A program made the translations under genes and the position numbers. A DNA stretch of 64,000 nucleotides, taken from assembly GCF_014230085.1 (NCBI RefSeq), contig NZ_JACHVB010000063.1:1-64000 (forward strand). Reading direction: 5' to 3'. The notes under the pieces were generated by a model that saw only the letters and a list, made by a program, of their open reading frames with translations, had not been told where the DNA came from and did no database searches. Origin of the DNA: Ruficoccus amylovorans (GTDB lineage: Bacteria > Verrucomicrobiota > Verrucomicrobiia > Opitutales > Cerasicoccaceae). This document shows positions 1,006-41,310 of this stretch, piece after piece (within the stretch, counting starts at the first letter, position 1; the number at the start of each line of letters is the position of its first letter).

Positions 1006-1016
1006 TAGACTGCTCT

Positions 1017-1051
1017 AAAAAGGAGCCGCCTGACCCAGGCGGCTCCTTTTT
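1017..1051. terminator. Bidirectional intrinsic terminator
   Basis: A perfect 11-bp stem (1022-1032 with 1036-1046, loop ACC) has five A on the left and five T on the right, so it can act on both strands. It probably ends the minus-strand operon that finishes at 1187. It lies only 10 bp outside the IS630 right end. Confidence 0.85.
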
Positions 1052-1186
1052 ACCTTGGAGTGGTCGGTTCGGGATTCACGATTTTAAGGCCACGGCCCCA
1101 GCGTTTGAGATCGCTGGGGTTAGGCCCGGGTACTTCGATAAATATCCTTTAAAGAAAATGCCCGAGCAGGATGCTCAAGGAATTCC

Positions 1187-3790
1187 TTACCCTTCGACGG
1201 GGCGAAGCCAGAGTTCGGACAGGCAGGTGCTACGCGCGCGATCTTTGACACGCCGGAACTGGATATCAGCGTCTCCATTGGTGATGAGCCGGGCGGGGAT
1301 GCGCACAGAGATGCGGTCAATGCCCTTGCCACTGGGAATGACGCGATGGAGGATCTCTCCGTTGACGACAACATCGAATTCGTTGGGGCTATTGATCGCG
1401 AAGCTGACTCCGCTGGGATTCGGGTGCATGAGAATTAACTCATAATCCGTATTTTTAAGAAGCCCATCGAACTGAAACTCCAGGCCTTCCTGATGAGAGT
1501 GGGAATAGGCATACGTGCGTTGAGAGGGACGTGAGTCGTCGGCCCAACTGCCTGTGCCATAATACAGGTTGCCGGACGCAAAATTGAAGTGCGGCGCGTA
1601 ATCGAGCGTACCGACGTCTTCGTAGAATTCTCCAGGTCCTGTACGGTCGTAGTTGACCACTTCGGATATCCTGTTGCGAATGTCGCTCGAACTCTCGCCC
1701 TCGTAGGCGGCGTGACGAAGCTGGGAAGCCAGCCATTTCACTCCAATGCCGTCGTAGTCTTTGATCTTGAGTAAGGCCGCGCAGCGAATACCGCCGTTGC
1801 GGTCGGTGAGATCATCGAGTGCGATGGCTTCGTTGCGCAGAGCGAGCAATTCAGGGGTTTCCTCCAGCGCATTCTCCAGCGATTGGATGAGCGGGATAAG
1901 GTCTTTAATCGGGCGGTTGGTTGCAAGCTGGCGGTCAAGTTCTGCGATGGCAGAATCGTAGGCGTTTTGCAGGGCCATTTGACGGCGCAAAATATAGAGG
2001 TCGATCACTGCGCGCTGAGCGAGCATGGCGTAGCGCCAGTCGTGTGCGAGAACGTCCTCCGGGATCAGATCGCGGGCCTGAGTGACGAGTTCATAGGAGC
2101 GCTCGATACCGGCGGCATTCTCAAGCAACGGTTTTTCGTAGTTGATTTCGCCCTGGAAAACGGCGTCGGCCAGGGTTTCAGCGGCGGCTTCTCCGGTGTA
2201 GTAAGAGTAGTATTCCAGGGCGATGCTGCGCGCGTCGAGCTTGGGGTCCCAGGCCAGGCGGAGGAGGAGGTATTTATTGAAATCGTCGTAGTTGCCTTCG
2301 CTGTAGCCGAGCAGTCCATCGACGCAGGAGATGTCAGCGGTGACTACCCGGTGGTAGGCCACGGGGCGGGCGTTAAAAGTGCGTCGGGGGTAGATCTCGG
2401 AGAGAATCGGATCTATGTATGGGATGCCATTCTCCGCGCGTTTCCAGTGGGAGATGTCGATGAGGGATAGTATTTCCTGGCCCGGGTGGAGGTACGAGCG
2501 CAGCGACTTGAGGAAGGCACGCTCGGGGAAAGGACCAGGGGCATTTTCCCACTTGGGATTGAGGATGACGTCGCCGTATGTGTTTTGCTCGCTGCCTCCG
2601 GGTGCCATACAGTAACCACCGATCCAACTGGGGTTATCGTTTTTGATTTTGGAGAAGAACCATTCATTATCCGCAATCTGAAAGTCCTGGTTGGCGAAGA
2701 TGGATTTGGTCTCGGGGTGGTAGATATGGAGACGTTCAGAGAGGTCTTTGACGAGGTCGTAAAAGGTGTGCGACCACGGCGCGCAAGCATCACAATCACA
2801 CCCGGCGACATCGGAAGGAGACCAGATGATGCGGTCGAGCCGCGGCACCTGCGCGAAGTAATCTTCCTTGCCATCAAGGAGGAATTCGCGGGCTTCCGGA
2901 ACGGAGACGCAGACGTTGGCGTTATGAAGGCCACCGGCGTCATGTGCACGCCACCCGGGCTGCATGTTTTCCCGGCCAATGCCGTTAATGGAATTGCACA
3001 CGATAAAGCCGACGTCGAGGTCTTGGGCACGCTCCGAGCGCTCGGTCGAGGACGGAATACTGGAGCCCCAGCCGTTAAGAATCTGGTTCGCACCGAGCAT
3101 GTATTGGAAATCAAGGTAGTTGAGTCCCTCGGAGAAACTCCACGCGCGGGCCTTGGTTTCGCGGGCAGCGCGCGGATCCATCGGTTGCTTTTCCGCTCCC
3201 ATTGTGGAGCGTATTTGAACAGAGGGGGCGGTGCAAATTTCTCCGGATTTCAGATAGAGTCCATCGTCATTGAACCGGGTCTGTTGCAGAACCCAGCCAA
3301 GCCCATAGAGAATCGAACGGCTGCTGACACCTGCGACGATTGCCAATTGCCCTGCGGTGGGGCTGTCAGCGTCGATGCGGGCGTAAAAGCCCTCGGGGCC
3401 AGGATCGGTGGCATCGGGGATGGCGACCTGATGATCCGTGAGCCAGCGAGCAAGCTCGGGATCGGAGTCGGGGCGGCCGACATAGATATACACGAGTCCA
3501 GGCGTGCCGGGGGAGGAAATGGAGTCGCTTGTTTTGACACTGACGCGAACCGGCAGGTCGCCGATGCGCAGGCGGAATTGAGTCGCAGCCAATTCGACAT
3601 GGCGAAGGTCCACCGGATCGAATTCCCTGGGGTGAATGATCTCGATCGCGGTAATCGTGCGGGCGGAAGCCTCCTGTGCGCGGCCCGTCAGTGAAGGTAC
3701 GAGCAGGAGTATTGTCAGGATAATCCAGTGGATCGGGAATACGTTCGAAAGGGAAGTTGGGCGCATTGTGTGGATTTGAAAGGGAGACAT
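1187..3790 (-). CDS. Secreted DUF4838 / GH67-N-like glycan-active protein
   Basis: This large exported protein (867 residues) is likely a glycoside hydrolase-like enzyme. The N-terminus has a membrane or signal segment (about residues 20-38) ending in an Ala-Gln site. Residues about 45-175 resemble the alpha-glucuronidase (GH67) N-terminal domain, with VYIYVGRP and GLGWVLQQTRF. The middle holds the DUF4838 barrel signature with the Cys cluster CDCDAC near residue 335. The C-terminus (about 720-867) looks like a beta-sandwich ligand-binding domain. It is the last gene of the minus-strand block, 12 bases after the symporter gene. A later Met (residue 9) is an alternative start. The substrate cannot be read from the sequence; a uronic-acid or acidic glycan is a guess from the GH67-like head. 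Confidence 0.72.
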   Translation of the reverse strand: MSPFQIHTMRPTSLSNVFPIHWIILTILLLVPSLTGRAQEASARTITAIEIIHPREFDPVDLRHVELAATQFRLRIGDLPVRVSVKTSDSISSPGTPGLVYIYVGRPDSDPELARWLTDHQVAIPDATDPGPEGFYARIDADSPTAGQLAIVAGVSSRSILYGLGWVLQQTRFNDDGLYLKSGEICTAPSVQIRSTMGAEKQPMDPRAARETKARAWSFSEGLNYLDFQYMLGANQILNGWGSSIPSSTERSERAQDLDVGFIVCNSINGIGRENMQPGWRAHDAGGLHNANVCVSVPEAREFLLDGKEDYFAQVPRLDRIIWSPSDVAGCDCDACAPWSHTFYDLVKDLSERLHIYHPETKSIFANQDFQIADNEWFFSKIKNDNPSWIGGYCMAPGGSEQNTYGDVILNPKWENAPGPFPERAFLKSLRSYLHPGQEILSLIDISHWKRAENGIPYIDPILSEIYPRRTFNARPVAYHRVVTADISCVDGLLGYSEGNYDDFNKYLLLRLAWDPKLDARSIALEYYSYYTGEAAAETLADAVFQGEINYEKPLLENAAGIERSYELVTQARDLIPEDVLAHDWRYAMLAQRAVIDLYILRRQMALQNAYDSAIAELDRQLATNRPIKDLIPLIQSLENALEETPELLALRNEAIALDDLTDRNGGIRCAALLKIKDYDGIGVKWLASQLRHAAYEGESSSDIRNRISEVVNYDRTGPGEFYEDVGTLDYAPHFNFASGNLYYGTGSWADDSRPSQRTYAYSHSHQEGLEFQFDGLLKNTDYELILMHPNPSGVSFAINSPNEFDVVVNGEILHRVIPSGKGIDRISVRIPARLITNGDADIQFRRVKDRARSTCLSELWLRPVEG

Positions 3791-3802
3791 GGTAAGGCAG
3801 GA

Positions 3803-5311
3803 TTAGTTAGTCGAGGAGGAGGGTTTTGTGCGGACGAGCAGGAGGATAAAAAAACCGGTCGCCAGAACGGCAAGGGTGCCGAAAGTGCTGATGAGAAAGG
3901 GATGGGTGGGAGAACGCAGCGCGAGCGGCAGCCATTGAGTCTGAGATAGCGTGAGCCAGACAACGGTGACAATGCCGACACTTACGCTGACGGCACCGGC
4001 GAGCCGTGAGCGCACCCGAACAGCCAGGCTGAGGAGGAACAGGCCAAAGAGCCCGCCGGAAACGATACCGCTTATCTTCCACCCCACATCCAGCGTGCTG
4101 CCGGCATGGATCATGAGGATGGCGAGCAGGGTGCCAACCACGCCGATCGCGATCGTTGTGAGGCGGATGGTGCGGATGGACTGACGTTCGGTCGCGTCAG
4201 GTTTGATGTAGCGTCGGTAGATATCGGAGTAGATGACGGTGGCGGAGGCGTTGAGACTGCTGGAGAGCGTACTCATCGCGGCGGCGAATATAGCTGCGAT
4301 GACGAGGCCGGTTAGTCCGGTGGGCATCTCGGTGGAGATGAAGTACGGAAAGACCCAGTCCCCTTTCAGGGGGTCAAGCAGCTCGGCGCTAATGCGCTCC
4401 GGATGGTGCCGGTAAAAGGCGAACAGGCTGGTCCCAATGAAGAAAAAGACGGCGGAAACCGGAATGTAGATGAGCCCTCCGAGCCAGACGGCCTTGTTGG
4501 CTTCCCGGGCTGAGGTGGCTACATGGTAGCGCTGCACATAGTTCTGGTCCACCGAGAAGGCCTGAAGGTTGCCGACCAGGCCGAACACAAAAACGACCCA
4601 GAATGTGGATTCGGTAAGTGTGAGTGACAGGCTGCCGAGGCTGAACTTGTTTTCGCTGGCACCGAGCCGGATAATTTCCACGGCCCCGCCGGGCACATTG
4701 ATCCAGATGAGGGCGATGCTTATAAGCGCGCCGAGGATGAGCACCAATGCTTGGATGGCATCGGTCCAGATGACGGCGGTGATCCCGCCTATGAATGTAT
4801 AGAGGGTGGTGGAAACGCCCGTGACCAGAATGATGGTTCGGATATCCCAGCCGAGAAATACACTGACGGGCACGGCCATGAGGTAGGTGACAATCGCGAT
4901 ACGCCCGAGCTGGGAAAGCACAAAGCAGAGGGTCGCATAAAGCCGTGCTCCGCCTCCGAATTTGGCCTCCAGGTGGGAGTATGCGGATATCTGACCACCG
5001 TTGCGGTAGAAGGGGACGAAGTACTTTACGGCGACCCAGACAGCGACAGGAATGGCCAAACTGAAGGCATAGGCATTCCAGTTCTCAATAAACGCCTTGC
5101 CGGGGAGCGCCAGAAAGGTGACCGAGCTGATAAAGGAGCCGACGATAGACAGGCCGCACAACCAACCGGGGATGCTGTGGCTGGCCGCAGTTATCCCTTC
5201 AACGGACCTGTCCTTCCGGCTGACATAAAGGGCGAAAGTGATCGTAAGGACGAAATATAGTCCAATGACCGCAAGGTCGATGGCATTTGCCGGGGCGGAG
5301 TCAGAAGTCAT
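3803..5311 (-). CDS. Sodium:solute symporter (SSS family)
   Basis: This inner-membrane Na+-coupled transporter (502 residues, about 13 hydrophobic helices) carries SSS family features. These are an N-terminal helix followed by a charged YVSRKDRSVEG loop, the GWLCGLSIVGSFISSVTFL stretch of helix 2, and the DQNYVQRY signature near residue 255. The start at 5311 is chosen because its ATG overlaps the TGA of the upstream lyase gene as ATGA, implying translational coupling; a longer version from 5350 would run into that gene. Coupling to a DapA/NanA-type lyase suggests uptake of the sugar acid that the lyase cleaves, as in sialate or keto-sugar-acid import. The substrate is inferred, not shown. 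Confidence 0.88.
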   Translation of the reverse strand: MTSDSAPANAIDLAVIGLYFVLTITFALYVSRKDRSVEGITAASHSIPGWLCGLSIVGSFISSVTFLALPGKAFIENWNAYAFSLAIPVAVWVAVKYFVPFYRNGGQISAYSHLEAKFGGGARLYATLCFVLSQLGRIAIVTYLMAVPVSVFLGWDIRTIILVTGVSTTLYTFIGGITAVIWTDAIQALVLILGALISIALIWINVPGGAVEIIRLGASENKFSLGSLSLTLTESTFWVVFVFGLVGNLQAFSVDQNYVQRYHVATSAREANKAVWLGGLIYIPVSAVFFFIGTSLFAFYRHHPERISAELLDPLKGDWVFPYFISTEMPTGLTGLVIAAIFAAAMSTLSSSLNASATVIYSDIYRRYIKPDATERQSIRTIRLTTIAIGVVGTLLAILMIHAGSTLDVGWKISGIVSGGLFGLFLLSLAVRVRSRLAGAVSVSVGIVTVVWLTLSQTQWLPLALRSPTHPFLISTFGTLAVLATGFFILLLVRTKPSSSTN

Positions 5312-6273
5312 CGCGCGGCGGTGGTCGAAGGGCAGAGGCCAAGACGGCACTCCCAGTCGATGATGCGGCCCCTGAGCGAACGCAAGTCCTCAAGCTGGGA
5401 TGCACTGAAGTCAAAACTGGACACCCGGGTGTGCGGCGTGAGGCGGAGCCCGGCAAGCCCGAGGTAGTGCTTGGCTGATTGGGGATACTGCACGTGGACA
5501 AGCCGGTTTTCGGCTTGAATGAAGGCACTGAGTTCCTCGGCTAGCGCTGGCTGCTCGGCATGGTGGCGACAGAGCCAGGAGAAAAGGGACAGGAAATAGT
5601 TGCCTGCTATGCCGCTGTAGCCAGCTCCGCCCCGGCGGAGGCTATCCAGCAGGGTGACCCCATCGGCATTGTAGAAGCTTAGCGGAGTATTCGCTGTGCT
5701 GCGCAGCTTTTCAGCGATGACCCCGGAGTCGCAACAGGTGTCCTTTGTCATGACAAAGCGTCCGGTGCCGGCCAGCCAGCCAAGTGTCCCGGCTGAAAGA
5801 TTACACGGGAAGGGGCGGGGGCACTCGTAGATACCCAAGGGGATATTGTCAGGGACAAGCTCCAGAAAACGGGAAACGGCGTCGCGCCAATCAGAATCGC
5901 TGCCGTCCGGTTCGTCGGGCGCTTCGCAATAGAATTGGTTTGTCAGCAGGATGACCGCCGCGACACCGGTGTCAGCCATTCGGCGAGTTTGCTCCGCCAT
6001 GTCATTCAGGTCTGGTCCCATTGGGCCAGCAGCGATGACAGGCACGCGACCAGAAACTCGCGCGAGCGCACGTTTGGCGAGAGCTTCTTTCTCCTCTGCC
6101 GAGAGGTGATAAAGCTCGCTGGAGAGACACACGGAAAAAAGTCCGGAGGCGCCAGCACTCACATACCAGTCCACGAGCTCATCGAAGGCTGGCCAGTCGA
6201 TCGTGTCGTCCGGCGTGAAGGGGGTTAGCATAACCGGCCAAGTGCCGGAGGGAGGATGAAAACAAGTGTGCAT
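5308..6273 (-). CDS. Dihydrodipicolinate synthase/N-acetylneuraminate lyase family protein
   Basis: A TIM-barrel class I aldolase of 321 residues, the usual family length. The N-terminus GTWPVMLTPFTPDDTIDW is typical. The Schiff-base Lys is probably in VMTKDTCCD (about residue 174) and the partner Tyr in IYECPRPFP (about 147). The usual GTTGE substrate loop is replaced by CLSSELYHLS, so pyruvate-type substrates differ from those of true DapA. The gene lies between a pseudopilin-like gene and the symporter gene, which it overlaps by ATGA. With an SSS transporter and a Gfo/Idh oxidoreductase in the same block, a catabolic sugar-acid lyase is more likely than lysine synthesis. The exact reaction is unknown. 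Confidence 0.82.
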   Translation of the reverse strand: MHTCFHPPSGTWPVMLTPFTPDDTIDWPAFDELVDWYVSAGASGLFSVCLSSELYHLSAEEKEALAKRALARVSGRVPVIAAGPMGPDLNDMAEQTRRMADTGVAAVILLTNQFYCEAPDEPDGSDSDWRDAVSRFLELVPDNIPLGIYECPRPFPCNLSAGTLGWLAGTGRFVMTKDTCCDSGVIAEKLRSTANTPLSFYNADGVTLLDSLRRGGAGYSGIAGNYFLSLFSWLCRHHAEQPALAEELSAFIQAENRLVHVQYPQSAKHYLGLAGLRLTPHTRVSSFDFSASQLEDLRSLRGRIIDWECRLGLCPSTTAAR

Positions 6274-6362
6274 AGGTGGTATTATCTCACAAATTCCCGA
6301 TCGGGGTAAGCGTGCGGGGCGGTGTGTACAATCACGTTGGCTTGTGGCCAGGGGAAGGAGCG

Positions 6363-7019
6363 TCAGTCAACGTTTTCCGTGCGTACACTGCCGTCAAAGT
6401 AGAGGACATTACGGACATTGCCATGTACTGGGTCCCAAGTGGCGGACTGACCGATGGGGCCACCGTTCGCCTTGATGTTTTTCCGGTCAACCTCGTATAT
6501 GGCTGGGACATTCGGCAGGGGGTCGGATATCTGATAGAGACGGATGGGTTTCTTGCTGCCGGTGGCACGGCCAAAAGGTTCAATCCATGTGTCACCTCCG
6601 TCGATTGGTACCCGCATGTTCATGGCGTAGCAGACGCCGCTGACTCGAAGAGCTTCCCAGGACGGGCAAACGAAGAGTTCGTTCTTCAGGGAGACGCCGG
6701 ACTTGTACAGGGTGCCATCGACATAGGGGGCGATGAACGCAGCCAGAGAGCCGCTGGATTCTCCCTTGTAGAGGCCGTTTTGGCCCTCGTTGAGGCCGCC
6801 GGGAAGTACGCCCTCATGCTCGTTGGCATACAGGTTGATGCCGATCCCGATCTGGCGCAGGTTGCTGGCACAGTGGGTGCGTTGAGAGGTCGCTCGAATC
6901 TTGCTTATGGTCGGGATCAGGATGGAGGCGATGACGCCAATGATCGCGATAACCGTAAGCATTTCAACCAGCGTGAAACCAACAAACTTTCGACTGCGCG
7001 GTCTGAATGAAGCGTTCAT
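6363..7019 (-). CDS. Pseudopilin-like protein with prepilin N-terminal methylation motif
   Basis: A 218-residue protein with a classic type IV prepilin leader: RKFVGFTLVEMLTVIAIIG, cleavage expected after Gly, then a hydrophobic helix. The rest is a soluble domain with SNLRQIGIGINLYANEHEG and a C-terminal VHGNVRNVLYFDGSVR. This is the arrangement of the many Planctomycetes/Verrucomicrobia proteins with a prepilin-type head and an H-x9-DG ending. It would need a prepilin peptidase, not encoded in this window. It sits among glycan genes, not in the type II operon at 17295, so it may be a surface or substrate-binding component and not a secretion pseudopilin. Its role is unknown. Confidence 0.82.
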   Translation of the reverse strand: MNASFRPRSRKFVGFTLVEMLTVIAIIGVIASILIPTISKIRATSQRTHCASNLRQIGIGINLYANEHEGVLPGGLNEGQNGLYKGESSGSLAAFIAPYVDGTLYKSGVSLKNELFVCPSWEALRVSGVCYAMNMRVPIDGGDTWIEPFGRATGSKKPIRLYQISDPLPNVPAIYEVDRKNIKANGGPIGQSATWDPVHGNVRNVLYFDGSVRTENVD

Positions 7020-7052
7020 GAAAGGACCTGTGCTTTTGATGGGCAGATCGCA

Positions 7053-7820
7053 TCAGCGACTCGAAACCCACGTGATTTCCGAGCCGGCGGCTATGTCATC
7101 GAGGAAGAAGCTGAACATCCCTGAAGCCTGTCCGTTGATGGCAATGTTTTTAAGCGGTCTCATGGCGGCGGTATGATGTTTTTCAATTCCGGAAGCAATC
7201 AGGACACCATCCAGCCACACGTCCATCGTGCCGGATTCAAGCGTGCGACGATCTTTGTCATAGCTCACCGCAGATGTACCGTTGTTGAAAACGAGAATGA
7301 GGCTGTGCGGCTGGTGCATGGCATACTCACCCAGCCTGGAGGTTTTATTGATGTCCGCGGAGTCGGGGCGATTCGTGTATATTGCGCCATTGGTCAGGAA
7401 AATCATGAAGGCAGTGGAGGAATTGCCCGGATTATTATCGGAGGTGGACAGTCGCAACTGAAGGCCGTTGGCGTTCTTGGTAACGCTGGAGATGCCAGGG
7501 TCGTAAAAGGTGAATTCAACCTGTCCGCTGTATCCGAAACCGTAGGGCTTGATGACCGCGTGGAGTTGAATATTCGCCTGCGAGCCGCCGTCGCGCAGGT
7601 ACAGGAAGTTGTTTCCCTCTCCCTTGCCGAAAAGATTCTGGGTATCAGCTTTGACCAGATATTCCAGTTTTGGATCATCGGCCTGATGGAGAACCCACGG
7701 CTCGCCAAGGCTTGTGTCGGGCGTTGCCGAATCGAAGTTCTCGAAGAGCTCCGTAGTAGCGCCCGAGAGGGACGTCAACGTGAGGCATGAGAGACCAAGG
7801 ATGAGAGCTGTAGTATGCAT
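7053..7820 (-). CDS. Secreted LamG/concanavalin-like protein of unknown function
   Basis: A 255-residue exported protein. The signal peptide MHTTALILGLSCLTLTSLSG is followed by a beta-rich domain (NFDSATPDTSLGEPWVL, VEFTFYDPG, LNIAINGQASGMFSFFLDDI) of the kind seen in LamG/jellyroll modules. The following gene upstream in the operon (7905-8759) encodes a protein with the same domain plus a PEP-CTERM tail, so the two are probably paralogues. This one ends in ITWVSSR with no sorting signal, so it should be released to the periplasm or outside. A carbohydrate-binding role is inferred only from fold and neighbours. Confidence 0.7.
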   Translation of the reverse strand: MHTTALILGLSCLTLTSLSGATTELFENFDSATPDTSLGEPWVLHQADDPKLEYLVKADTQNLFGKGEGNNFLYLRDGGSQANIQLHAVIKPYGFGYSGQVEFTFYDPGISSVTKNANGLQLRLSTSDNNPGNSSTAFMIFLTNGAIYTNRPDSADINKTSRLGEYAMHQPHSLILVFNNGTSAVSYDKDRRTLESGTMDVWLDGVLIASGIEKHHTAAMRPLKNIAINGQASGMFSFFLDDIAAGSEITWVSSR

Positions 7821-7904
7821 GGGAAATAAATGGTGTGGCTGGATGGAGCAGGCGGTCGTTGCATTTCTATTTCAGACCGCCTGCCAAAATCATACAAACG
7901 GCGT

Positions 7905-8759
7905 TCAGGCGCGACGGCGGAGACGTTGGGCCGTGAACACAAGGCATAATACTCCGCCAATGATGAATGCGAAGTTGGAAGGCTCCGGGATCGTGATATT
8001 CGACAGGTAGGAAATGTCGTCCAGGTACATGTTGAATTCGCCGGAGGATTGGCCATTGAAAGTCACATTGCCTATACCATCGGTGGAGGTGTTGTTATTG
8101 AATTTGGTGAGGCCGGATGCGACCACGATGCCATTCAGCCAGATGTCCATTCTTCCCGCAGCCAATGAATAGATGTCTCCATCGCCATAGGTGATGTCTG
8201 TGGTGCCGTTGTTAAAAACGATGCTCAACTCCTGCGCAGTACGGGTTGGGCTGGTATCGTAGGTGGCGAGCAGATTGTTGGTATCGATGGACGAGGAACC
8301 GGGGCTGTTGGTATATATCCCGCCGTTGGAAACGAAAATGCCAAACGGGGAAGTACTGTTACCGGCGGCACCCGTTGTGGATGTGCCAAGGCGGACCAAT
8401 AAGCCGGTGTTGTTGGCCCCGCCGGTCGTGCTGGTCAGCGGGTCGTAGAAGGAGAAGGATATCTGACCAATGGTGGACGGAGTCGATACGGTCCGGTAGA
8501 ACTGAATATTCGGAGCGCCGCTTACGCCATCATGCAGGGAGAGGTACTTGTTACTGGTCCCCTGGCCAAAGAGATCAGAGGTGTCCGTGGCGATGCGATA
8601 GGTCAGCGTGCTGCCATTATCCGGAACACTCAGGCTCCAGGGGGAGCCAAGGACAGAGCCGCTGGGGTAGCTTTGGAAGTTCTCTGAGAAGAGAACGTCG
8701 GCCGAGAGCGGGGCAGCCAGGGTGAACGTGAGCAAGAAGACGCGAAGCTTGGTATTCAT
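7905..8759 (-). CDS. PEP-CTERM sorted LamG-like surface protein
   Basis: A 284-residue exported protein with a signal peptide (VFLLTFTLAAPLSAD) and a jellyroll-like body (ENFQSYPSGSVLGSPWSL, ISFSFYDPLTS, FNGQSSGEFNMYLDDIS). It ends with a PEP-CTERM signal: IPEPSNF, a hydrophobic helix, then RLRRRA. The tail predicts processing by an exosortase and attachment at, or release from, the envelope. The start at 8759 overlaps the stop of the upstream oxidoreductase gene as ATGA; ATG at 8765 is a close alternative. It is a paralogue of the next gene (7053-7820), which lacks the tail, suggesting a displayed and a free version of one binding module. Confidence 0.82.
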   Translation of the reverse strand: MNTKLRVFLLTFTLAAPLSADVLFSENFQSYPSGSVLGSPWSLSVPDNGSTLTYRIATDTSDLFGQGTSNKYLSLHDGVSGAPNIQFYRTVSTPSTIGQISFSFYDPLTSTTGGANNTGLLVRLGTSTTGAAGNSTSPFGIFVSNGGIYTNSPGSSSIDTNNLLATYDTSPTRTAQELSIVFNNGTTDITYGDGDIYSLAAGRMDIWLNGIVVASGLTKFNNNTSTDGIGNVTFNGQSSGEFNMYLDDISYLSNITIPEPSNFAFIIGGVLCLVFTAQRLRRRA

Positions 8760-10003
8760 TGGCATAGGTTGTTTGGGCTGTGTTTTTGTGGCAGGGCGCC
8801 TCTCCCAAAGAGAGGACCGTAGATAGATTCCAACTCCACCCACGTCGGGTCGAGGTTGACGATGTGTCCCAAGTCCATGGAACGGTCAATGGCGTTGGCC
8901 AGAGCGAGCGAGCGCACGCCTTCGCCAAAGCCGGCGGCAGGGGGGACGTGATTGAGAAGGACATCGATGAGTTCGCTGGTCATGACTTCATCACCACCTG
9001 CGTGGGAGTTTCCTTCGATCGGTTTATAGACGACCGGAGATTCGTCCCAGCCGATGCGGCGAACTTCGATGACTCCTGTCATTGCATCAGCACGAATCGT
9101 TCCCTCGGTGCCAAGGACATAGAAGCGGCGCTCGTCGATGCCGGCATTGCAATTGGTGTGAAAAGTGGCCCGGATGCCGGTCGCAAACTCAACAATCGCG
9201 ACCTGATGATCAACGATGTCCTTGTCATCATTAAAAGGGTTGATGCCTGTGGGGTCAATCCAGTTCTGGTAGGCCGGGCGGCCGGTGTCCGGGTTGGGGC
9301 CGATGCGCTTGGCCAGGTAATTGTTGTCGGGAGTAAATACCGCACACCCTCCAAAGCTGGCGACACGCATGGGCTTGTCTTCGGCCAGCCACAGCATGAG
9401 GTCAAGATCGTGGCAGCACTTTTCGAGAAGATGGGTTCCGGCGTTGGCGCGTTTGCGGCGCCAGTTGCCGTGGATGTATCCGCCGTGGTTGAAGGTCAGT
9501 GTTTCGTTGAACTCAAAAGAGACGATACGCCCGATGGTTTGCTCGTCGAGAACCTGGCGAATCTTGCGATAAAAGGGTGAGTATCGCAGCACGAGGCCAA
9601 GGGCAAAGGTGCGGTTACTTTCTACCTGGGCGTCACGCATGCAACGGGCCTCCTCAAGCGTGAGGGCGAGGGGCTTTTCGCAGAAAACATGCTTGCCCGC
9701 CTTGAAGGCGGCGATGCTCTGCTGGGCGTGGTAGCTGTTCCAGGAGCCGATGAAGACCCAGTCAACGTCCTCCCGCGCACAGAGATCTTCGGCGGATGCG
9801 CAGATGTGCGCCTCGGGAGCCAAATCCTGGCGCAGTTGGCGGACTGAATCTTTGTCAGGATCGTAAACTGCGGTTATAGAAATTTTAGCAGCCGCCGGAT
9901 TGCCGAGCAGAAGCCGGAGAACGTTCCTCATACGACTACCAGCCCCGATGACGCCAATCTTGACGCAGGAAAGGGGGACGGCTGTGAATTCAGGGGAATA
10001 CAT
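8756..10003 (-). CDS. Gfo/Idh/MocA family oxidoreductase
   Basis: An NAD(P)-dependent sugar or sugar-acid dehydrogenase of 415 residues. The N-terminal Rossmann fold has IGVIGAGSRMRNV (about residues 15-28). The CEKPLALTLEEA segment near residue 100 carries the EKP lysine typical of the family, and a catalytic His is likely in LLEKCCHDLDLMLWL (about 195). It is the first gene of the minus-strand block and starts 37 bases from the divergent AraC gene, so both probably share one control region. Oxidation of a sugar released by the DUF4838 protein is plausible; the substrate is not deducible. Confidence 0.88.
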   Translation of the reverse strand: MYSPEFTAVPLSCVKIGVIGAGSRMRNVLRLLLGNPAAAKISITAVYDPDKDSVRQLRQDLAPEAHICASAEDLCAREDVDWVFIGSWNSYHAQQSIAAFKAGKHVFCEKPLALTLEEARCMRDAQVESNRTFALGLVLRYSPFYRKIRQVLDEQTIGRIVSFEFNETLTFNHGGYIHGNWRRKRANAGTHLLEKCCHDLDLMLWLAEDKPMRVASFGGCAVFTPDNNYLAKRIGPNPDTGRPAYQNWIDPTGINPFNDDKDIVDHQVAIVEFATGIRATFHTNCNAGIDERRFYVLGTEGTIRADAMTGVIEVRRIGWDESPVVYKPIEGNSHAGGDEVMTSELIDVLLNHVPPAAGFGEGVRSLALANAIDRSMDLGHIVNLDPTWVELESIYGPLFGRGALPQKHSPNNLCQ

Positions 10004-10040
10004 GATGGTGGCATTTTAGCCGGAATCCTATTTTCTTGCA

Positions 10041-10976
10041 ATGGCACTGGCGATGGAAGATTTTGCAAAAACGATGGCCACAGATAATCTCTTAATCAAG
10101 AGGGTCAGGGGGAAGGTCCGACGAGTGCCTCCCGTTCCTTCCAACTATTATTCGGGGATCAGGCGGTGGAGCGGGACCTTTCCGGACAACATCCTGTTGT
10201 TTTCGAGAAGTCACCGTCGAAGCCTTCCTTCTGATGACGTCTCGTCCTATTTTCACCACCGGTGGGTGGTGATATTTGTCTTGGAGGGAGAGGTCACGAT
10301 TCGGTTGGACCGTAATCCATGTCACATGGCCCCCGGCTCGGTGATCCTTATTCCTCCGCTTCACTTTCACCACTACAACGATGTGGTATCGGAGAAACTG
10401 TGCTGGCTGTTTATCACATTTGATTGGCCAGGGCACGCGGCTCCATCGGCTTCTGATCTGAAGCCGGTTTCAATGAGCCAAGCCGATATGCACCGGCTGG
10501 AGTCTGTGCTGGCTACGTGGGCTGCGCAGGATGACCCGATGTGCGGCAGCTTGCTCAGTGTGAATGTGCTGGGAGTATTACTGGAGTTGTTTCCTATCCT
10601 TGCCGACAGGAAGCATGAGGAAGAAATCCCAAGTGGTGAACCCGAGATGGTTGCGGCTGTGAGGCAACTGCTTACCGAGAATCCCCACCGATCCTTGTCT
10701 GTTGAAGATGTGGCGGGACTTCTTGGAATAAGCGCCAGTCACCTTCGCGCGGAATTCCGGGCTCGCGCAGGTATCAGTCTCGGTCGTTACATGCGCGAGT
10801 GGAGACTGCGCGAGGCTGCGCTTCTGCTATCGTCTTCAGAATTATCCGTAAAAGATACCGCGGAAAGATTGGGCTTCAGGGATATTTATGCCTTCAGTCG
10901 TTCTTTTACGCATACGCTGGGCATGACTCCCTCAAGCCTGCGTCCCAAAAATCGTAGCCAGAAAAAAAACAAATGA
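10041..10976 (+). CDS. AraC family transcriptional regulator
   Basis: A 311-residue regulator with a cupin-type sensing domain at the N-terminus (DRNPCHMAPGSVILIPPLHFHHY, about residues 95-115, metal or sugar-pocket His residues). The C-terminus has a double helix-turn-helix (about 215-305: LSVEDVAGLLGISASHLRAEF and LSVKDTAERLGFRDIYAFS). It is transcribed away from the oxidoreductase operon and most likely activates that block on binding a sugar. Only 37 bases separate the two starts if ATG 10041 is used. ATG 10053 and 10074 are in-frame alternatives that would leave more room for promoters. None has a clear Shine-Dalgarno sequence. Confidence 0.9.
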   Translation: MALAMEDFAKTMATDNLLIKRVRGKVRRVPPVPSNYYSGIRRWSGTFPDNILLFSRSHRRSLPSDDVSSYFHHRWVVIFVLEGEVTIRLDRNPCHMAPGSVILIPPLHFHHYNDVVSEKLCWLFITFDWPGHAAPSASDLKPVSMSQADMHRLESVLATWAAQDDPMCGSLLSVNVLGVLLELFPILADRKHEEEIPSGEPEMVAAVRQLLTENPHRSLSVEDVAGLLGISASHLRAEFRARAGISLGRYMREWRLREAALLLSSSELSVKDTAERLGFRDIYAFSRSFTHTLGMTPSSLRPKNRSQKKNK

Positions 10977-17294: not shown

Positions 17295-17774
17295 ATGATG
17301 ACCAAAGCTGCCCCGGCACAACGCCGCAAAGGCTTCACGCTGCTTGAGGTATTGATCGCGATTGCGCTTTTGGCCGCCATCGTCGCGCTCCTTATCACCA
17401 ACCTCGACCGCATCCTCGGCGGTGGTAACAAGGAAGTCGCCCGCATCTTCGTCAACGAAACGCTCGAAACGCCCCTTATGACCTACCGGGTACACATGGG
17501 AAGCTACCCGACGACCGAGATGGGGCTTAAGGCCCTGATGATCCGTCCCTCCGACGAGGCCGTCAACTGGCAGGGACCGTACATCAAGCAACTCTCCAAA
17601 GACCCGTGGGGTAACGAGTACCAGTACCGCTTCCCCGGTGAAAAGAACACCGAGTCCTACGACCTGTGGTCCTGGGGGCCCGACGGCCAGGAAAGCGCCG
17701 ACGATATTGGCAACTGGAATCCGCAGCTCATGGGAGACTCCGGCAACCAGGCCTCCACCACGGATAATTTCTAA
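17295..17774 (+). CDS. gspG: Type II secretion major pseudopilin GspG
   Basis: A 159-residue pseudopilin with the leader RRKGFTLLEVLIAIALLAA, cleaved after Gly and N-methylated on Phe. The body is GspG-like: YPTTEMGLKALM, WQGPYIKQLSKDPWGNEYQY and the C-terminal YDLWSWGPDGQE calcium loop. It builds the shaft of the type II pseudopilus. It is the first gene of the secretion operon that runs to 30043. Two tandem ATGs (17295, 17298) compete as start. The gene sits divergent to the sulfatase gene across 230 bases that must contain the operon promoter. Confidence 0.93.
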   Translation: MMTKAAPAQRRKGFTLLEVLIAIALLAAIVALLITNLDRILGGGNKEVARIFVNETLETPLMTYRVHMGSYPTTEMGLKALMIRPSDEAVNWQGPYIKQLSKDPWGNEYQYRFPGEKNTESYDLWSWGPDGQESADDIGNWNPQLMGDSGNQASTTDNF

Positions 17775-17793
17775 ATCGTGAGCCTCAGTTTAC

Positions 17794-18312
17794 ATGAGAA
17801 GCCCTGCACGCCGCCGGCGACAGCCAGCCTTCACCGTGATCGAAGTGTTCATGGTGGTGTCGCTGCTGGCCGCGGTGCTGGGGCTTGTCATCGTAAACTA
17901 TTTTAATATCTCCGGCTCTTACGACAAGCGCCCGGCCCGGGACCAGATCCAGCGGGCCGTGGCCGAAGGCTACCGGCTGGCACGGCTGGAAGGCGGCATC
18001 GTCAGCCTCCGCTACGAGGCGGAGAACGGCGCGCTCTCGCTCAGCGATCAGCAGGGCAAGGAGCTGGCCAGAATCACGCTGCCCGGCGTCCCCGAAGACG
18101 GGGAAATGACCTTCTACCGGATCAAGCCCGAGTCCCAGCTTACCGAGGAGCCGAACTTCGAAGCCGAGGAAGACCCGGTCGAGGTGCTGGATTTCCAGCC
18201 CTACGGAGCCTCACTCCCGTTCCTGGTCCACTACACTCATGGAACCGAAGCCTTTACCCTGAGATTTGACGCATTCTCCGCCCTTAGCTGGGAAGAAGAA
18301 GATGTTCTCTAA
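17794..18312 (+). CDS. gspH: Type II secretion minor pseudopilin GspH-like
   Basis: A 172-residue pseudopilin with leader RRRQPAFTVIEVFMVVSLLA; the residue before Phe is Ala in place of Gly, an allowed but less common cleavage site. The body is divergent and beta-rich. Its position between gspG and a gspI-like gene supports the assignment as a tip minor pseudopilin, although sequence alone is not decisive. It ends 11 bases inside the next gene. Confidence 0.72.
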   Translation: MRSPARRRRQPAFTVIEVFMVVSLLAAVLGLVIVNYFNISGSYDKRPARDQIQRAVAEGYRLARLEGGIVSLRYEAENGALSLSDQQGKELARITLPGVPEDGEMTFYRIKPESQLTEEPNFEAEEDPVEVLDFQPYGASLPFLVHYTHGTEAFTLRFDAFSALSWEEEDVL

Positions 18313-18835
18313 AGCCACCCCCTCTTTCCCGCGTCGAGCGGGATTTACCCTCGCAGAAGTGGTTGTCGCCACCGTGCTGCTGGGGCTGGCTGCGACTGTC
18401 CTCGGGAGAACGGTTTCCGACGCCATGCGCGCCTATTCCATGACGCGCCTGTCCAACCCATACAGCTACGCCCTGCGCCACGTGCGTCAGGAAATCATGG
18501 AAATCCCCTCACGCGAACAGCTTGAGGAAGGCGGCACAATCGAGGTTTACGTCCCCAACCCCGGCGGCAGCGACAAGAGCGAAACCACCATCGCGGTCAG
18601 CGCCCGCTGGGAAGCCGAGATCTACCCCACCCGCCTGCTCAACGTCTATGTCGTCGAGCTGGACATATCCTTCGAGGCCGAGGGGGAGGCGGAATCTTTC
18701 CAGAGACGCATCACCGCGTACCGTCCGAACTGGGCTGACGCCGAGGAAAACTCGACCCTGCTTCAGGCCAAGGAAAAGGAATTCGAGCTGCGGCTGGCCG
18801 CCCGCGGTATCACCGAAAGCGAGGACGACTCATGA
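18302..18835 (+). CDS. gspI: Type II secretion minor pseudopilin GspI-like
   Basis: A 177-residue pseudopilin starting at ATG 18302, which overlaps the end of the previous gene; this start places the leader FPRRAGFTLAEVVVATVLLG near the N-terminus. The body (FQRRITAYRPNW) is short, as in GspI. It forms the pseudopilus tip complex together with the J and K proteins. The assignment rests mainly on order, G-H-I-J-K. Confidence 0.72.
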   Translation: MFSKATPSFPRRAGFTLAEVVVATVLLGLAATVLGRTVSDAMRAYSMTRLSNPYSYALRHVRQEIMEIPSREQLEEGGTIEVYVPNPGGSDKSETTIAVSARWEAEIYPTRLLNVYVVELDISFEAEGEAESFQRRITAYRPNWADAEENSTLLQAKEKEFELRLAARGITESEDDS

Positions 18836-19488
18836 AGGTGCACCGCTTCCGGGCTGGCATGAGTTTTCTGGAGGTCCTGCTGGCCGTGGCCATGCTGGGC
18901 CTGCTCATCGTTGCCGGGGCCACCATGCTTTTCGCGCTCACACGCAGTTACTTCACCCTCGAAACCAGTCCGCTCTTTGACCGGCACGCAGACGGCGTGA
19001 TCGGCCTGCTGCGCTCCCTGGCCAGTGAATCCGGCCCTCCCCCCGACCCCAACAGCAACGCGCGACCGGGTCCGCAATTCGGATGGAGTACCTCTCCGGT
19101 TAGTCAAAAATCCACCCTCTCCTTCAAGATCGACCGCGATCTGGCCTTCTTCGTCTCCGACGAGCATCCGCTCCCGGCCATCGACGCGTTTCTGGAGTTC
19201 GACGAAGAAAACCACCAGTTCTGGCTGGCCTGGTACGTTGACCCGAAATTCACCAACAACAACCGGACGATCAACTACACCCTGCTCTCCCCCTGGGCCT
19301 CCGATATCCAGTACGGCTACTACGACGAAGGGCAAAATCAGTGGGAGTTCGAATTCGCCAGCGACGACAGCCGCCAGCATGGCAACGAGAAGCCCCGGAA
19401 CGTGACCCTGATTTTTGACCGCGACGATGTCGTCGTCCGGCGAACCATCTACCTGGACACCCCCACGCACCATGTTCTCGACTACTAG
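18832..19488 (+). CDS. gspJ: Type II secretion minor pseudopilin GspJ-like
   Basis: A 218-residue pseudopilin with the leader FRAGMSFLEVLLAVAMLGLL; the position after Gly is Met, and Glu at mature position 5 is kept. The size and the beta-rich C-terminus fit GspJ. It overlaps the preceding gene by ATGA and the following one by 17 bases. It belongs to the tip complex with I and K. Confidence 0.75.
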   Translation: MKVHRFRAGMSFLEVLLAVAMLGLLIVAGATMLFALTRSYFTLETSPLFDRHADGVIGLLRSLASESGPPPDPNSNARPGPQFGWSTSPVSQKSTLSFKIDRDLAFFVSDEHPLPAIDAFLEFDEENHQFWLAWYVDPKFTNNNRTINYTLLSPWASDIQYGYYDEGQNQWEFEFASDDSRQHGNEKPRNVTLIFDRDDVVVRRTIYLDTPTHHVLDY

Positions 19489-20755
19489 GCAGCAGCGGAA
19501 GCGGCGGGGAGTCGTCATCGTCCTGGCCCTGGGCATGATCCTGCTCATGACCTGGCTGGCCCTGGAAATCCTGCGCGGCGTGCGCCAGGACCTGGCCGTC
19601 ACGACCTCACCCGTCAGCCGGACGCAACTTCGGGAAACCGCCTATCAGTTGCTCGAGGTAAGCATCGGCGTGCTGGCCGAGGTCAAGCGCTTTGAGGGCG
19701 GCATCTATTCCCCGTCACAGGGCTGGGGCCTCCCCCTGACCTATGCCGGAATGGCCCACTCCGCCAAACTCAAGAGCGCCCTGCCCCAGGAAACCCCACC
19801 TCCGGCCCCACCCGCTAACAGCGACGACGAGCTGGGATTTGACGAAACCGAACAGACCGACACGACTGACACCGCCCAGGCGGAAACCGACGAGGCTGAG
19901 TCCTTTCTCAACGACCTGGTCTTCGACGTGGAAAACGCGGAAGCGGCCCAGGACGGATTCGAACGCGCGGTCACGCAGGTTGAACCCTCAGCCGAGACGA
20001 CCGGCCAGATGTCCGCCGAAACCGCCTTGATCGAGCTTCCGCCCGGCATCCAGGCCCGGGTGCGACTCTTTGACGAGTCGGGCAAGCTCTCGCTCACCGA
20101 TACAAGCGAAGCCCGCTGGCTTCTCTTTTTCGAGCAGATGGGCTTCGAGGATTCCGAGTCGAAGACGCTGACCGACAGCCTGCTGGACTGGATCGACCCC
20201 GACGAGGAGGAACGCGAAAACGGTGCCGAGACCGAGACCTACGCCCAGCTCGACCCGCCCTACCGCTCCGCCAACCGCCCGTTGCGTGACTTCCGCGAAT
20301 TGCGCTACGTGCAGGGCTTCAAGACGCTGTTCTTCGACGAGCGCGGCGTCCCGAACGAATATTACAATACCTTCAAGGCCAACGTCTCCCTCTTCGGCAA
20401 GGGGGAGGTCAACTTCAACACCGCGAGCGAACTGGTGCTGCTCACCTTGGCCGAGGAGCGCGATTTTGATCCGGACCAGGTACTTACTTTCCTCGCCGGG
20501 ACGGACACGCAGTTCGGGACAGAAGATGACCGCATCCTCAGACCCGGCCTTGACGACAGCGAATTACCCAAAGACAATGATGGGAACGTTCTGCCCGCGA
20601 ACCGGTCGGTTAATTTTATCATTGCCGAAATCGCCGTCAGTGATGGTCAGAGTATCTACGTGCTTAATGCACTCCTGGATCTGACCCAGAAACATCCCGG
20701 CGGAACTTATCCCTTTCGCATTGTTCGTATAACTGAAAACCAGCCTCTATTTTAA
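19472..20755 (+). CDS. gspK: Type II secretion GspK-like tip protein
   Basis: A 427-residue protein beginning at ATG 19472. A basic start (RQQRKRRG) is followed by a hydrophobic helix (VVIVLALGMILLMTWLALEIL), the GspK/PilX type head. GspK hallmarks follow: KLSLTDTSEARWLLFFEQ, DSLLDWIDPDEE with acidic calcium-type residues, and NTASELVLLTL of the helix-hairpin region. Residues about 110-190 are an Asp/Glu/Ala-rich insert. It caps the pseudopilus. Confidence 0.85.
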   Translation: MFSTTRQQRKRRGVVIVLALGMILLMTWLALEILRGVRQDLAVTTSPVSRTQLRETAYQLLEVSIGVLAEVKRFEGGIYSPSQGWGLPLTYAGMAHSAKLKSALPQETPPPAPPANSDDELGFDETEQTDTTDTAQAETDEAESFLNDLVFDVENAEAAQDGFERAVTQVEPSAETTGQMSAETALIELPPGIQARVRLFDESGKLSLTDTSEARWLLFFEQMGFEDSESKTLTDSLLDWIDPDEEERENGAETETYAQLDPPYRSANRPLRDFRELRYVQGFKTLFFDERGVPNEYYNTFKANVSLFGKGEVNFNTASELVLLTLAEERDFDPDQVLTFLAGTDTQFGTEDDRILRPGLDDSELPKDNDGNVLPANRSVNFIIAEIAVSDGQSIYVLNALLDLTQKHPGGTYPFRIVRITENQPLF

Positions 20756-22251
20756 TGCCTAAAGCCCCGGTGCCCCCATCTGCCACCGACAAGCCGACCT
20801 CTGACCGGGTTCGGCTCGTCCCGTCGGCGCTGTTTTACGTGGCCAGCTACCCGATCCCCAAGGGCATTCGCAGCCGCGACATGGCCGCGATGGTACAGGG
20901 GCTGGTGGACGAGCATTCCCCTCTTCCCCTTGAGCAGACGAGCTGGGGCTTTCTGCTGGATAACCGCGGCATCAACAGCAGCCACTTCCTTTACTACGCC
21001 GGGGCCAAAGACCTGGTTTTCAAATCCGCCAGCGATGCGGTTTCCCTGAGCGAAACCGCTGTGCTCCCCGCCTTCGTCGCTACGCAGGGGCTGAGCTTCG
21101 ACACACCCACCTGGATATTTTTCCTGGAAAAAGAGTGCCTGAGCGCGCTCTTCTTCGAGAAGGCTTCCAACGTCCCCACCCGGCTCGTCTCGCGTTTTCT
21201 CTCCGACATCCTCCCGGGAACCGATTCGGTGTTTCTCAAGCGCGAAGAAATGCTTCGCAGCCTGACCAAGGCCGATTCCGATGAAAACATCGCCCCCGGC
21301 CTGATCCGTATTTCCGAAACCACTCCGCGCAAGAACAAGACCGTTTCTTTCCAACTCCAGCGCTGCGAGAGCGAGAACGACGACTGGAGAGACTGGAAGC
21401 GCACCGAATTCAGGAAGACGAACCGCTTGCTCGCCGCCGATGTCCGCGACCACACCACCCTGCTCGACCAGCAGCAGCGGGCCGGTCTCGGGCGCCGCCT
21501 CGGGCAGATAGCCACCGTCGTCGCCATCACCGTCGCGGCCCTGCTCATTTTCGAGTTTCTGCAATTCCGCCGCCAATCCGAAGCCGCCGCCCTCGCGCAG
21601 CAGGTCACGCGGCAGGCCCCCGAAGTCCAACGCCTGCAGGACATCGAAGCGATGGTCAAAACCCTCAAAACCCTTTTCGATCAGGACTTCCAGCCCTACC
21701 GCTGGCTGATGGAGCTGAATACGGGCCGCCCCGATTCCATTTCGTTCACCAGCTTTGCGGTGGATGACCAGGGCAGCCTCGTCTTCAACGGTCAGTCTCC
21801 CGAGGTCAAAACACTCAACGAGTACAAGTCCGTCCTCGACAAAAACCCACGCTTCAAACAGCCCCAGCTTTCAAACCTGAAGACAGACAAGGACGGCGTC
21901 ACCTTCACCATCAAATCCGAAACCGGCAACCTCCAGGCGGAGCTTCCGGCCGAGCTTCTCACCCCTCCCCCCGCAGCGGAAACCCCCGACGAGCCCGCGC
22001 CGGACACCGAGGTCGCCCAGGCGGCCCCGCCGGTCCACCGCCCCGGCCAGAACGGGAAAAAGAACCCCAACGGCACCCCCGGCAAAAAGAAGGCCCAAAA
22101 TGGCGGCAAGCCGCGCACCGGCGAAAAAAATGCCGCCGCCAGCCCGACCGACACGACCAGCGAAAGCGAGGCCGAACCGGCCGACGCCCCTGAAGAAACA
22201 AATGCCGAGCCCGCCCCTGACTCCGACGCCCCCAACCCCCCCGACGCATGA
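20755..22251 (+). CDS. gspL: Type II secretion inner-membrane protein GspL-like with long charged tail
   Basis: A 498-residue protein in the GspL slot. The N-terminal 240 residues are a cytoplasmic domain of reduced actin-like type (VRLVPSALFYVASYP, WGFLLDNRGINSSHFLYYAG). One membrane helix follows at about 247-268 (IATVVAITVAALLIFEFLQF), then a PilN/GspL-like periplasmic ferredoxin-like domain (ITFTSFAVDD-like region to about 400). Residues about 400-498 are rich in Pro, Ala, Lys and Glu with no predicted fold, an unusual periplasmic extension. It shares one base with gspK and overlaps gspM by ATGA. It should link the GspE ATPase to the periplasmic parts. Confidence 0.75.
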   Translation: MPKAPVPPSATDKPTSDRVRLVPSALFYVASYPIPKGIRSRDMAAMVQGLVDEHSPLPLEQTSWGFLLDNRGINSSHFLYYAGAKDLVFKSASDAVSLSETAVLPAFVATQGLSFDTPTWIFFLEKECLSALFFEKASNVPTRLVSRFLSDILPGTDSVFLKREEMLRSLTKADSDENIAPGLIRISETTPRKNKTVSFQLQRCESENDDWRDWKRTEFRKTNRLLAADVRDHTTLLDQQQRAGLGRRLGQIATVVAITVAALLIFEFLQFRRQSEAAALAQQVTRQAPEVQRLQDIEAMVKTLKTLFDQDFQPYRWLMELNTGRPDSISFTSFAVDDQGSLVFNGQSPEVKTLNEYKSVLDKNPRFKQPQLSNLKTDKDGVTFTIKSETGNLQAELPAELLTPPPAAETPDEPAPDTEVAQAAPPVHRPGQNGKKNPNGTPGKKKAQNGGKPRTGEKNAAASPTDTTSESEAEPADAPEETNAEPAPDSDAPNPPDA

Positions 22252-22787
22252 TCCGCATTCTGCAAAGCATTTCCGCCCGCGAACGGCTCATGCTGGCCGC
22301 CTTTATCGCAGTCTGTATCCTGATCTGGGCCAGCTCGCTCTCGCGCCGCTGGGATGAGAGCGGCAAAGTCCTCTACGAAGCCCGCAAGGAGGTCAAGCAA
22401 CAGGAAATCTGGCTCAAAAGCTCCCCGCTTTTTCAGGCTCAGCTGGAGCAGGCCACCACGCGGCTCGACCGCGAGCAAATGCTCGACGGCAGCGGGCTGA
22501 CCGCGTTTGTCGATGCCTACTCGCGTGAGCACCAGCTCAAGCACCAGTTGACTTCGCCGCAGGTCGTCTCCGGTAAAGTCTATACCCGCTCGACCGTGCA
22601 GGTCACTTTCCGCAACATTTCCCTCGCCGACCTGATCGGGCTGCAACTGGCCCTTGACGAGAAGCGCCCCTATATCGCGGTCGAGAAGCTCGCCCTGTCC
22701 TCCAACCGGGCCGACCCGCGGCTGCTCAACGCCCGCCTCAGCCTGACCGCCCTTTACGTCAACCCTCCGGCTCAAAACGCCCCGTAA
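22248..22787 (+). CDS. gspM: Type II secretion inner-membrane protein GspM-like
   Basis: A 179-residue protein with one N-terminal membrane helix (ERLMLAAFIAVCILIWASSL), a coiled-coil stretch (residues about 35-80) and a small periplasmic domain (VQVTFRNISLADLIGLQLAL). Size, topology and position directly after the GspL-like gene (ATGA overlap) identify GspM, the GspL partner of the inner-membrane platform. Confidence 0.8.
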   Translation: MIRILQSISARERLMLAAFIAVCILIWASSLSRRWDESGKVLYEARKEVKQQEIWLKSSPLFQAQLEQATTRLDREQMLDGSGLTAFVDAYSREHQLKHQLTSPQVVSGKVYTRSTVQVTFRNISLADLIGLQLALDEKRPYIAVEKLALSSNRADPRLLNARLSLTALYVNPPAQNAP

Positions 22788-22811
22788 CCTTTCACCGTCC
22801 AACTGGTCAAC

Positions 22812-28770: not shown

Positions 28771-28777
28771 CCGCCCG

Positions 28778-33884: not shown

Positions 33885-34016
33885 TGCCAGACGAGGGTAG
33901 TGTTTTTCGGGCCGGGTTCGATGGTATAACGCATTCATATTGGTAACATTGTTAGTCCTCTTTGGCTTCACATGCGGACAAAAAGCAAGGGTGCGATGAA
34001 TCTTTCCGCAACACAA

Positions 34017-36667: not shown

Positions 36668-36700
36668 ATTCACGATAATGCCTTATCTTCAGGTTATCAC

Positions 36701-41300: not shown

Positions 41301-41310
41301 CGCTGCATTA

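Follow-up and report, generated by a model that had tools for sequence, protein, structure and literature searches.

In Bacteroidota, glycans are handled by SusC/SusD-type polysaccharide utilization loci (PULs), in which each substrate locus supplies a regulator, a transporter, surface binders and degradative enzymes. Here we analyzed a block of genes with a similar composition in the verrucomicrobial Ruficoccus amylovorans (family Cerasicoccaceae, order Opitutales). It occupies positions 1187-10976 of a 64,000-nucleotide stretch of DNA, referred to as the window (contig NZ_JACHVB010000063.1, positions 1 to 64,000, forward strand). As in a PUL, the regulator, transporter and degradative genes adjoin one another. 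Unlike a PUL, the block contains no SusD_RagB protein. The place of the surface binders is taken by a prepilin (PIL) and two lectin-like proteins (LAM1 and LAM2), one of them with a PEP-CTERM tail, and a symporter of the SSS family would serve for uptake.

Pilus proteins have been tied to glycans in related bacteria. The mucin utilization locus (MUL, 'mucinosomes') of Akkermansia muciniphila, also a member of the Verrucomicrobiota, links type IV-like pilus proteins to glycan uptake, as described in part of PMC12997984. The MUL is a single machine locus, whereas the pilins described here are spread over dozens of places and many substrate loci, and the likeness is one of description only. In Planctopirus and Gemmata, dextran binds pili-like fibres of crateriform structures, and the sections of PMC5394234 on this subject do not name the fibre proteins. 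By analogy with these fibres and with the Akkermansia locus, pilus-based polysaccharide capture is plausible in the Planctomycetes-Verrucomicrobia-Chlamydiae (PVC) superphylum. Planctomycetes also carry prepilins with the same domain pair as PIL, in dozens of paralogues per genome (PMC8567305, PMC10632474, PMC2754498, each in the relevant part). At least 41 N_methyl + SBP_bac_10 prepilins are present per genome in Planctomycetales (PMC8567305), and Planctopirus has 68 DUF1559 paralogues, termed of unknown function (PMC10632474). In those parts no glycan-locus link is given and the spread in Tuwongella is even, whereas in R. amylovorans these prepilins are enriched beside glycan genes. We found no literature joining DUF1559 prepilins, PEP-CTERM lectins and glycan loci, in a search whose coverage mostly excluded subscription journals.

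Recurrence of the prepilin and lectin-like families

Across this bacterial family, the LAM2-like and PIL families recur together in the company of regulators, polysaccharide lyases, sulfatases and SSS symporters. In the window, they are part of the following block.

8756..10003, minus strand: Gfo/Idh/MocA oxidoreductase, operon gene 1 (PF01408, E 1.9e-20; PF22725; PF02894)
7905..8759, minus strand: LAM2, with signal peptide, predicted ConA-like lectin sandwich and PEP-CTERM tail (AlphaFold2 model; sequence)
7053..7820, minus strand: LAM1, tandem paralogue of LAM2 without the tail (42% identity to LAM2; tree)
6363..7019, minus strand: PIL, DUF1559-type prepilin with head GFTLVE and H-X9-DG end (TIGR02532, PF07596)
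5308..6273, minus strand: aldolase of the dihydrodipicolinate synthase (DHDPS)/N-acetylneuraminate-lyase type (PF00701, E 1.6e-21)
3803..5311, minus strand: SSS-family Na+/solute symporter (PF00474, E 1.8e-43; match to SiaT, 5nv9)
1187..3790, minus strand: secreted DUF4838-like protein, final operon gene (PF16126, 20.7 bits, cut-off of 26.6 not reached)
10041..10976, plus strand: divergent AraC-type regulator with cupin sensor domain (PF12833, E 3.7e-18; PF02311, E 8.8e-7)
1016..1052, minus strand: likely intrinsic terminator, a 17-bp perfect inverted repeat with a T run (sequence)

The seven minus-strand genes run from 10003 to 1187 in the order Gfo/Idh, LAM2, LAM1, PIL, lyase, symporter and DUF4838-like protein. 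The TGA of the Gfo/Idh gene overlaps the LAM2 start as ATGA (8759-8756), and that of the lyase gene overlaps the symporter start in a second ATGA (5311-5308). The other gaps measure 84 (LAM2-LAM1), 33 (LAM1-PIL), 89 (PIL-lyase) and 12 bases (symporter-DUF4838). Because of the two overlaps, and since the largest gap is 89 bases, the seven genes are likely to form one transcript. The AraC gene starts 37 bases from the operon on the opposite strand, and the terminator hairpin (1052-1016) lies directly beyond the DUF4838-like gene. An earlier reading made from the sequence only had described a catabolic set under a divergent AraC gene, an internal prepilin-headed protein, and ATGA coupling of the PEP-CTERM gene to the oxidoreductase gene. 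Genes, strands, order, prepilin and overlap were all borne out; the symporter, lyase, Gfo/Idh and AraC proteins exceed their Pfam cut-offs, and the DUF4838 assignment is weak.

Relatives of LAM were found in at least 17 of 372 genomes of the order, R. amylovorans included; the order- and phylum-wide searches scored about six candidates (or two) for each genome, and counts from these searches are lower bounds. A characteristic gene order is observed around them. A LacI regulator, a D-2-hydroxyacid-dehydrogenase-like gene (PF02826) and a LAM gene with PEP-CTERM tail are often divergent from PIL and a heparinase II/III-like lyase (PF07940); genes for sulfatases and for SSS symporters are found nearby. 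Among 21 sources (20 regions and the window), LAM is present in 19, LacI in 15, the dehydrogenase in 13, the heparinase-like lyase in 10, PIL in 10 (11 with the window's own), a sulfatase in 8 and an SSS symporter in 7. These gene lists are longest-open-reading-frame picks, sometimes on the wrong strand, and the window PIL, which they missed, was called by hand. In many cassettes (L032, L036, L045, L059, L072), the dehydrogenase-like gene separates LacI from the lectin gene.

The proximity of the two families was quantified in one genome (G020), almost all of whose DNA is on one contig. Of its 16 LAM clusters, seven have a PIL no more than 5 kb away, compared to 1.6 expected from circular rotation (p 0.003), which preserves the clustering of both sets. 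When only rows outside profile building are taken, four clusters out of 10 have a PIL this close (0.9-1.0 expected, p 0.009). No strong LAM is near a weak PIL (0 of 13 clusters). In ten other genomes, at least 19 of 29 LAM places are within 7 kb of a PIL among the matches listed (1.4 expected), as are at least 11 of 19 for rows outside profile building (0.83 expected); both expectations assume uniform placement, which ignores islands, and the figures serve as a guide. The two families also co-diverge: LAM and PIL distances are correlated (r 0.53, n 23, p 0.0002; without near-orthologues 0.33, n 20, p 0.002), and so are those of PIL and the heparinase-like lyase (r 0.72, n 15; without near-orthologues 0.57, n 12).

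The PIL family is associated with glycan genes in its own right. Fifty DUF1559-type prepilin matches are present in R. amylovorans and 30-71 in each of ten genomes of the family. In R. amylovorans, 42 of the 50 were kept, forming 37 separated places; 20 of these, chosen at random, were compared to an equal number of random regions. Twelve PIL places and 2 controls have one or more of sulfatase, SSS symporter, heparinase-like lyase, DHDPS and LacI (p 0.001). SSS symporters and AraC regulators each occur in 7 versus 0 (p 0.004 for both), PEP-CTERM proteins in 8 versus 1 (p 0.010) and LacI in 6 versus 1 (p 0.046). The difference for sulfatases, 5 versus 1, is not significant (p 0.09). Two of the controls are themselves within 10 kb of a PIL, which makes the comparison conservative; among the sampled PIL regions, L084 is an already known LAM locus.

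Relatives of the window lyase (E <= 1e-40) occur in at least 5 of 344 genomes, R. amylovorans included, at six or more places besides the window. Four of six such places have a PIL within 8 kb (G129:C53, G039:C24, G000:C60 and G000:C64). In the first two, the lyase and PIL are about 260 bases apart by match coordinates, and an SSS symporter, an AraC regulator and a PEP-CTERM protein are near. The PEP-CTERM proteins of G129, G039 and G000:C64 contain a true Laminin_G_3 domain (E 2.8e-24, 1.2e-24 and 4.5e-16, respectively), as does a protein in L072, a locus that has a strong PIL but no LAM (E 5.2e-13). The lectin slot can thus hold a real LamG protein.

Within the genomes examined, the LAM-PIL pairing characterizes this family, along with a few other members of the order (G049, G042). 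Outside the order, LacI, sulfatase, SSS or Gfo/Idh genes are near some LAM relatives. LAM-type domains are also found there within large proteins of 700-1450 residues (L123, L124, L127, L128). LAM looks like a mobile domain absent from Pfam. A LAM/PIL locus with 5-6 kb spacing is present in several genera (L054, L055), together with SSS, SASA esterase-like, DUF2264 and heparinase-like genes, and is probably an ancestral glycan locus of the family. Among 344 genomes, the exact gene set of the block is private to this one.

The lectin-like proteins and the prepilin

LAM1 and LAM2 have no Pfam match at E <= 1, to the LamG families or to any other, and no match to Pfam or NCBIfam LamG families at E 0.1. 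The AlphaFold2 model of LAM2, built with 26 aligned relatives (pLDDT 86.4, pTM 0.83), contains a beta sandwich followed by a C-terminal helix (residues 261-283). The closest structural matches (VIA-align) are the lectin-like domains of sialidases, 5mqr (Z 18.4, 178 residues, 2.8 Å) and 8hls (Z 17.7, 181 residues, 2.6 Å), and the Vibrio cholerae sialic-acid-binding domain 2w68 (Z 15.8, 181 residues, 3.3 Å). Calreticulin, ERGIC-53-type lectins and enzymes of glycoside hydrolase family 16 and polysaccharide lyase families (GH16/PL) follow. In the model, residues 18-258 form a two-sheet jelly roll that matches lectin, carbohydrate-binding module and GH16/PL domains with Z 13-18. Because of these matches to the predicted structure, LAM2 likely has a ConA-like lectin fold. 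The sequence-only reading had called both proteins LamG-like; the lectin fold is supported by the LAM2 model, whereas membership in the Pfam LamG families is not. The LAM profile returned nothing useful against the sequences of solved structures. Scanning the whole collection with a broad LAM alignment gave no conserved stretch, and a narrower alignment gave three loci only. No LAM2 relatives were found in viral contigs.

As the same reading had noticed, only one of the two proteins carries a PEP-CTERM tail. In LAM2, the tail consists of IPEPS, a hydrophobic stretch corresponding to the C-terminal helix and the basic end RLRRRA; it is plain in the sequence, although the PF07589 threshold is not reached. 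With the exosortases encoded in the genome, these features are those of an exosortase substrate. LAM1 and LAM2 are 40-42% identical and are sisters in the LAM tree (support 99/98), which makes them a tandem duplicate as judged from their sequences. Seven of the 26 rows of the tree lack the tail. On the tree, four changes in the tail are needed, of which three or more are forced by starred branches. In the window and in L044 the pair is a local duplicate, and the tail-less pair in L036 and L045 is an older orthologous set; the pairing of tailed and tail-less LAMs arose at least three times. Tail loss is not a general rule, since in L032 (6244-9946) LacI and the 2-hydroxyacid-dehydrogenase-like gene are followed by four adjacent LAM genes that all encode the tail, with no PIL near. 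Some tail-less copies have stop codons within the profile match, and tail-lessness may in part be decay.

PIL is classed as a DUF1559-type prepilin. It exceeds the cut-offs of TIGR02532 (24.3 bits, cut-off 16.3) and DUF1559/SBP_bac_10 (PF07596; 25.4, cut-off 23.3), and is below that of the prepilin head PF07963 (19.3, cut-off 21.2). Its C-terminus is a literal H-X9-DG, which scores 14.0 against TIGR04294 (cut-off 19). In the alignment of PIL-type proteins, the H of this motif is nearly invariant and the D is invariant; nearly every row retains both the prepilin signal and the H-X9-DG end. The PIL model (pLDDT 83.8) contains a helix at residues 17-67. In a sequence search against solved proteins, PIL matched only the pilin helix of solved pilins.

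The symporter, the lyase and the candidate substrate

The closest solved relative of the window symporter is the sialic acid transporter SiaT (5nv9; phmmer E 1.7e-70, the next 7e-36). In SiaT, Ser60, Thr63 and Arg135 hold the carboxylate of Neu5Ac, as stated in part of PMC5931594. The window symporter keeps all three residues. Unlike SiaT, it lacks Thr58 and Gln82, which contact the anomeric hydroxyl and the glycerol tail. The carboxylate-binding Arg is present in five of five symporters from lyase loci and in none of seven from other cassettes; the five are mutually related and represent one line of descent. Conservation of this Arg fits a sugar-acid substrate, and our best guess from these residues is a sugar acid other than sialic acid. 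Sialic acid itself was suggested by SiaT and by the sialidase lectin folds, and was lowered as a candidate given the lost glycerol-tail contacts. Because solved SSS symporters are few, proximity to SiaT is a weak pointer to sialic acid. The DUF4838-like protein has no solved relative.

Proposed mechanism and alternatives

We propose that the block is a substrate-specific glycan-utilization operon of a Cerasicoccaceae bacterium with a recurrent two-part surface module. The one prepilin peptidase found would process PIL, which would then join a shared type IV/type II pilus machine as a minor subunit specific to its locus. An exosortase would sort LAM2 to the cell surface, and LAM1 would be released or stay in the periplasm. 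The substrate of the locus would be bound by the two lectins and by the pilin head, and so be held or pulled in towards the cell, to be trimmed there by the DUF4838-like protein. The symporter would then import a small sugar acid, compatible with its retained carboxylate site and altered glycerol-tail contacts, for breakdown by the lyase and the oxidoreductase. The AraC protein would turn the gene set on. Surface capture by a pilus, coupled to uptake, is what we infer from these parts, and we give this pilin-lectin explanation as a whole slightly less than an even chance.

The genome encodes three exosortases, eight T2SSE-family matches over the cut-off and one prepilin peptidase, in agreement with the earlier suggestion of pilin-like and exosortase-sorted parts. 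That suggestion placed them in lieu of SusC/D. SusD is indeed absent from this genome (PF07980, no matches; Bacteroides control positive), but the claim is otherwise not supported; no SusC TonB-dependent transporter is among the genes of the block, and no genome-wide SusC search was made. A type II secretion system (T2SS)/type IV pilus-like set with a prepilin head, T2SSK-like protein, secretin, ATPase and T2SSF is located at 17316-30043 of the window, 6-8 kb from the block. Its secretin has repeated N domains. The window also contains a second glycan locus (32421-45263) with a sulfatase-like protein, two heparinase II/III-like proteins, a PEP-CTERM protein, a LacI regulator and a large Verru_Chthon-like protein. 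Beyond the terminator hairpin, an IS630-like element with 24-bp perfect inverted ends occupies 4-1007. Its transposase is split across two overlapping frames, a helix-turn-helix part (58-528) and DDE_3 (492-998).

Several observations weigh against the proposed mechanism. Failure of the pilin-like and LamG genes to accompany the catabolic genes in other genomes had been set beforehand as the outcome that would speak against it. The sequence-only interpretation mostly withstood this test, and is partly supported overall: the pilin-lectin pairing does recur beside catabolic genes, but the exact set is not conserved and PIL is found in none of nine LAM regions read outside the order. Two of the six lyase loci (L074, L078) have no PIL within 8 kb, and the main glycan markers are absent beside 8 of the 20 sampled PILs. 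For the DUF4838-like protein, none of the other 343 genomes has a relative at E <= 1e-30. About six of the 11 ten-genome matches unused in profile building are one orthologous locus with 5-6 kb spacing, so that they do not count as independent. In G020 taken by itself, the distances of LAM and PIL are uncorrelated (r -0.29, n 8, p 0.85). Foldseek found no match to the PIL model at E <= 0.001, leaving its head without a solved relative.

PIL may instead be a periplasmic solute-binding protein, attached to the inner membrane, that passes oligosaccharides on to the symporter; its prepilin head would serve as an anchor only, no filament would form, and the LAMs would be surface lectins. The alternative name of PF07596, SBP_bac_10, and the SSS symporters near 7 of 20 sampled PILs point in this direction, and Tuwongella proteins with both domains are mostly in fractions S2 and S3, according to part of PMC8567305. 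However, a mere anchor does not sit well with a prepilin signal and H-X9-DG end kept in nearly all rows, or with a genome that has a prepilin peptidase and pilus/secretion machinery. SSS symporters are also not generally known to need a binding protein. We regard this alternative as unlikely.

Alternatively, PIL could be a T2SS pseudopilin dedicated to its locus, serving to export or display the polysaccharide lyases and DUF4838-like enzymes encoded there. The strongest co-divergence of PIL is with the co-transcribed heparinase-like lyase (r 0.72), and a T2SS-like set is present in the same window (19415-30043). We nevertheless consider this role quite improbable: no heparinase-like enzyme is labelled beside PIL in the window or in the DHDPS-type lyase loci, and several sampled PILs adjoin regulators or symporters only. 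Least probable of all is the absence of any functional module, with PIL, LAM and PEP-CTERM genes as abundant accessory genes that share islands with glycan loci and met in the window by chance, for although PIL-type genes number about 50 in this genome, the exact set is unique and the G020 distances are uncorrelated, the operon is on one strand with two ATGA overlaps, similar gene orders are found in many loci, the rotation test is significant with clustering preserved, and strong LAMs keep away from weak PILs.

A broader and more doubtful extension of the pilin-lectin capture explanation is that the DUF1559-type prepilins of this family are the counterpart of SusD: every glycan locus would contribute a pilin tip of its own, and in many cases a lectin sorted by an exosortase, to one shared pilus machine that catches polysaccharides and pulls them in. 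Polysaccharides from algae and mucus are consumed on a large scale by PVC bacteria. SusD, which is central to uptake in Bacteroidota, is absent here, and the DUF1559 prepilins, among the largest paralogue families of PVC bacteria, have no known function. Their link to glycan loci is the most valuable part of our finding. Connected in individual loci to glycan genes and to exosortase substrates with a lectin fold, these prepilins provide a testable proposal for how polysaccharides may be held and taken up, and the pair of a prepilin and a ConA-like PEP-CTERM protein provides an annotation rule for glycan loci in this family.

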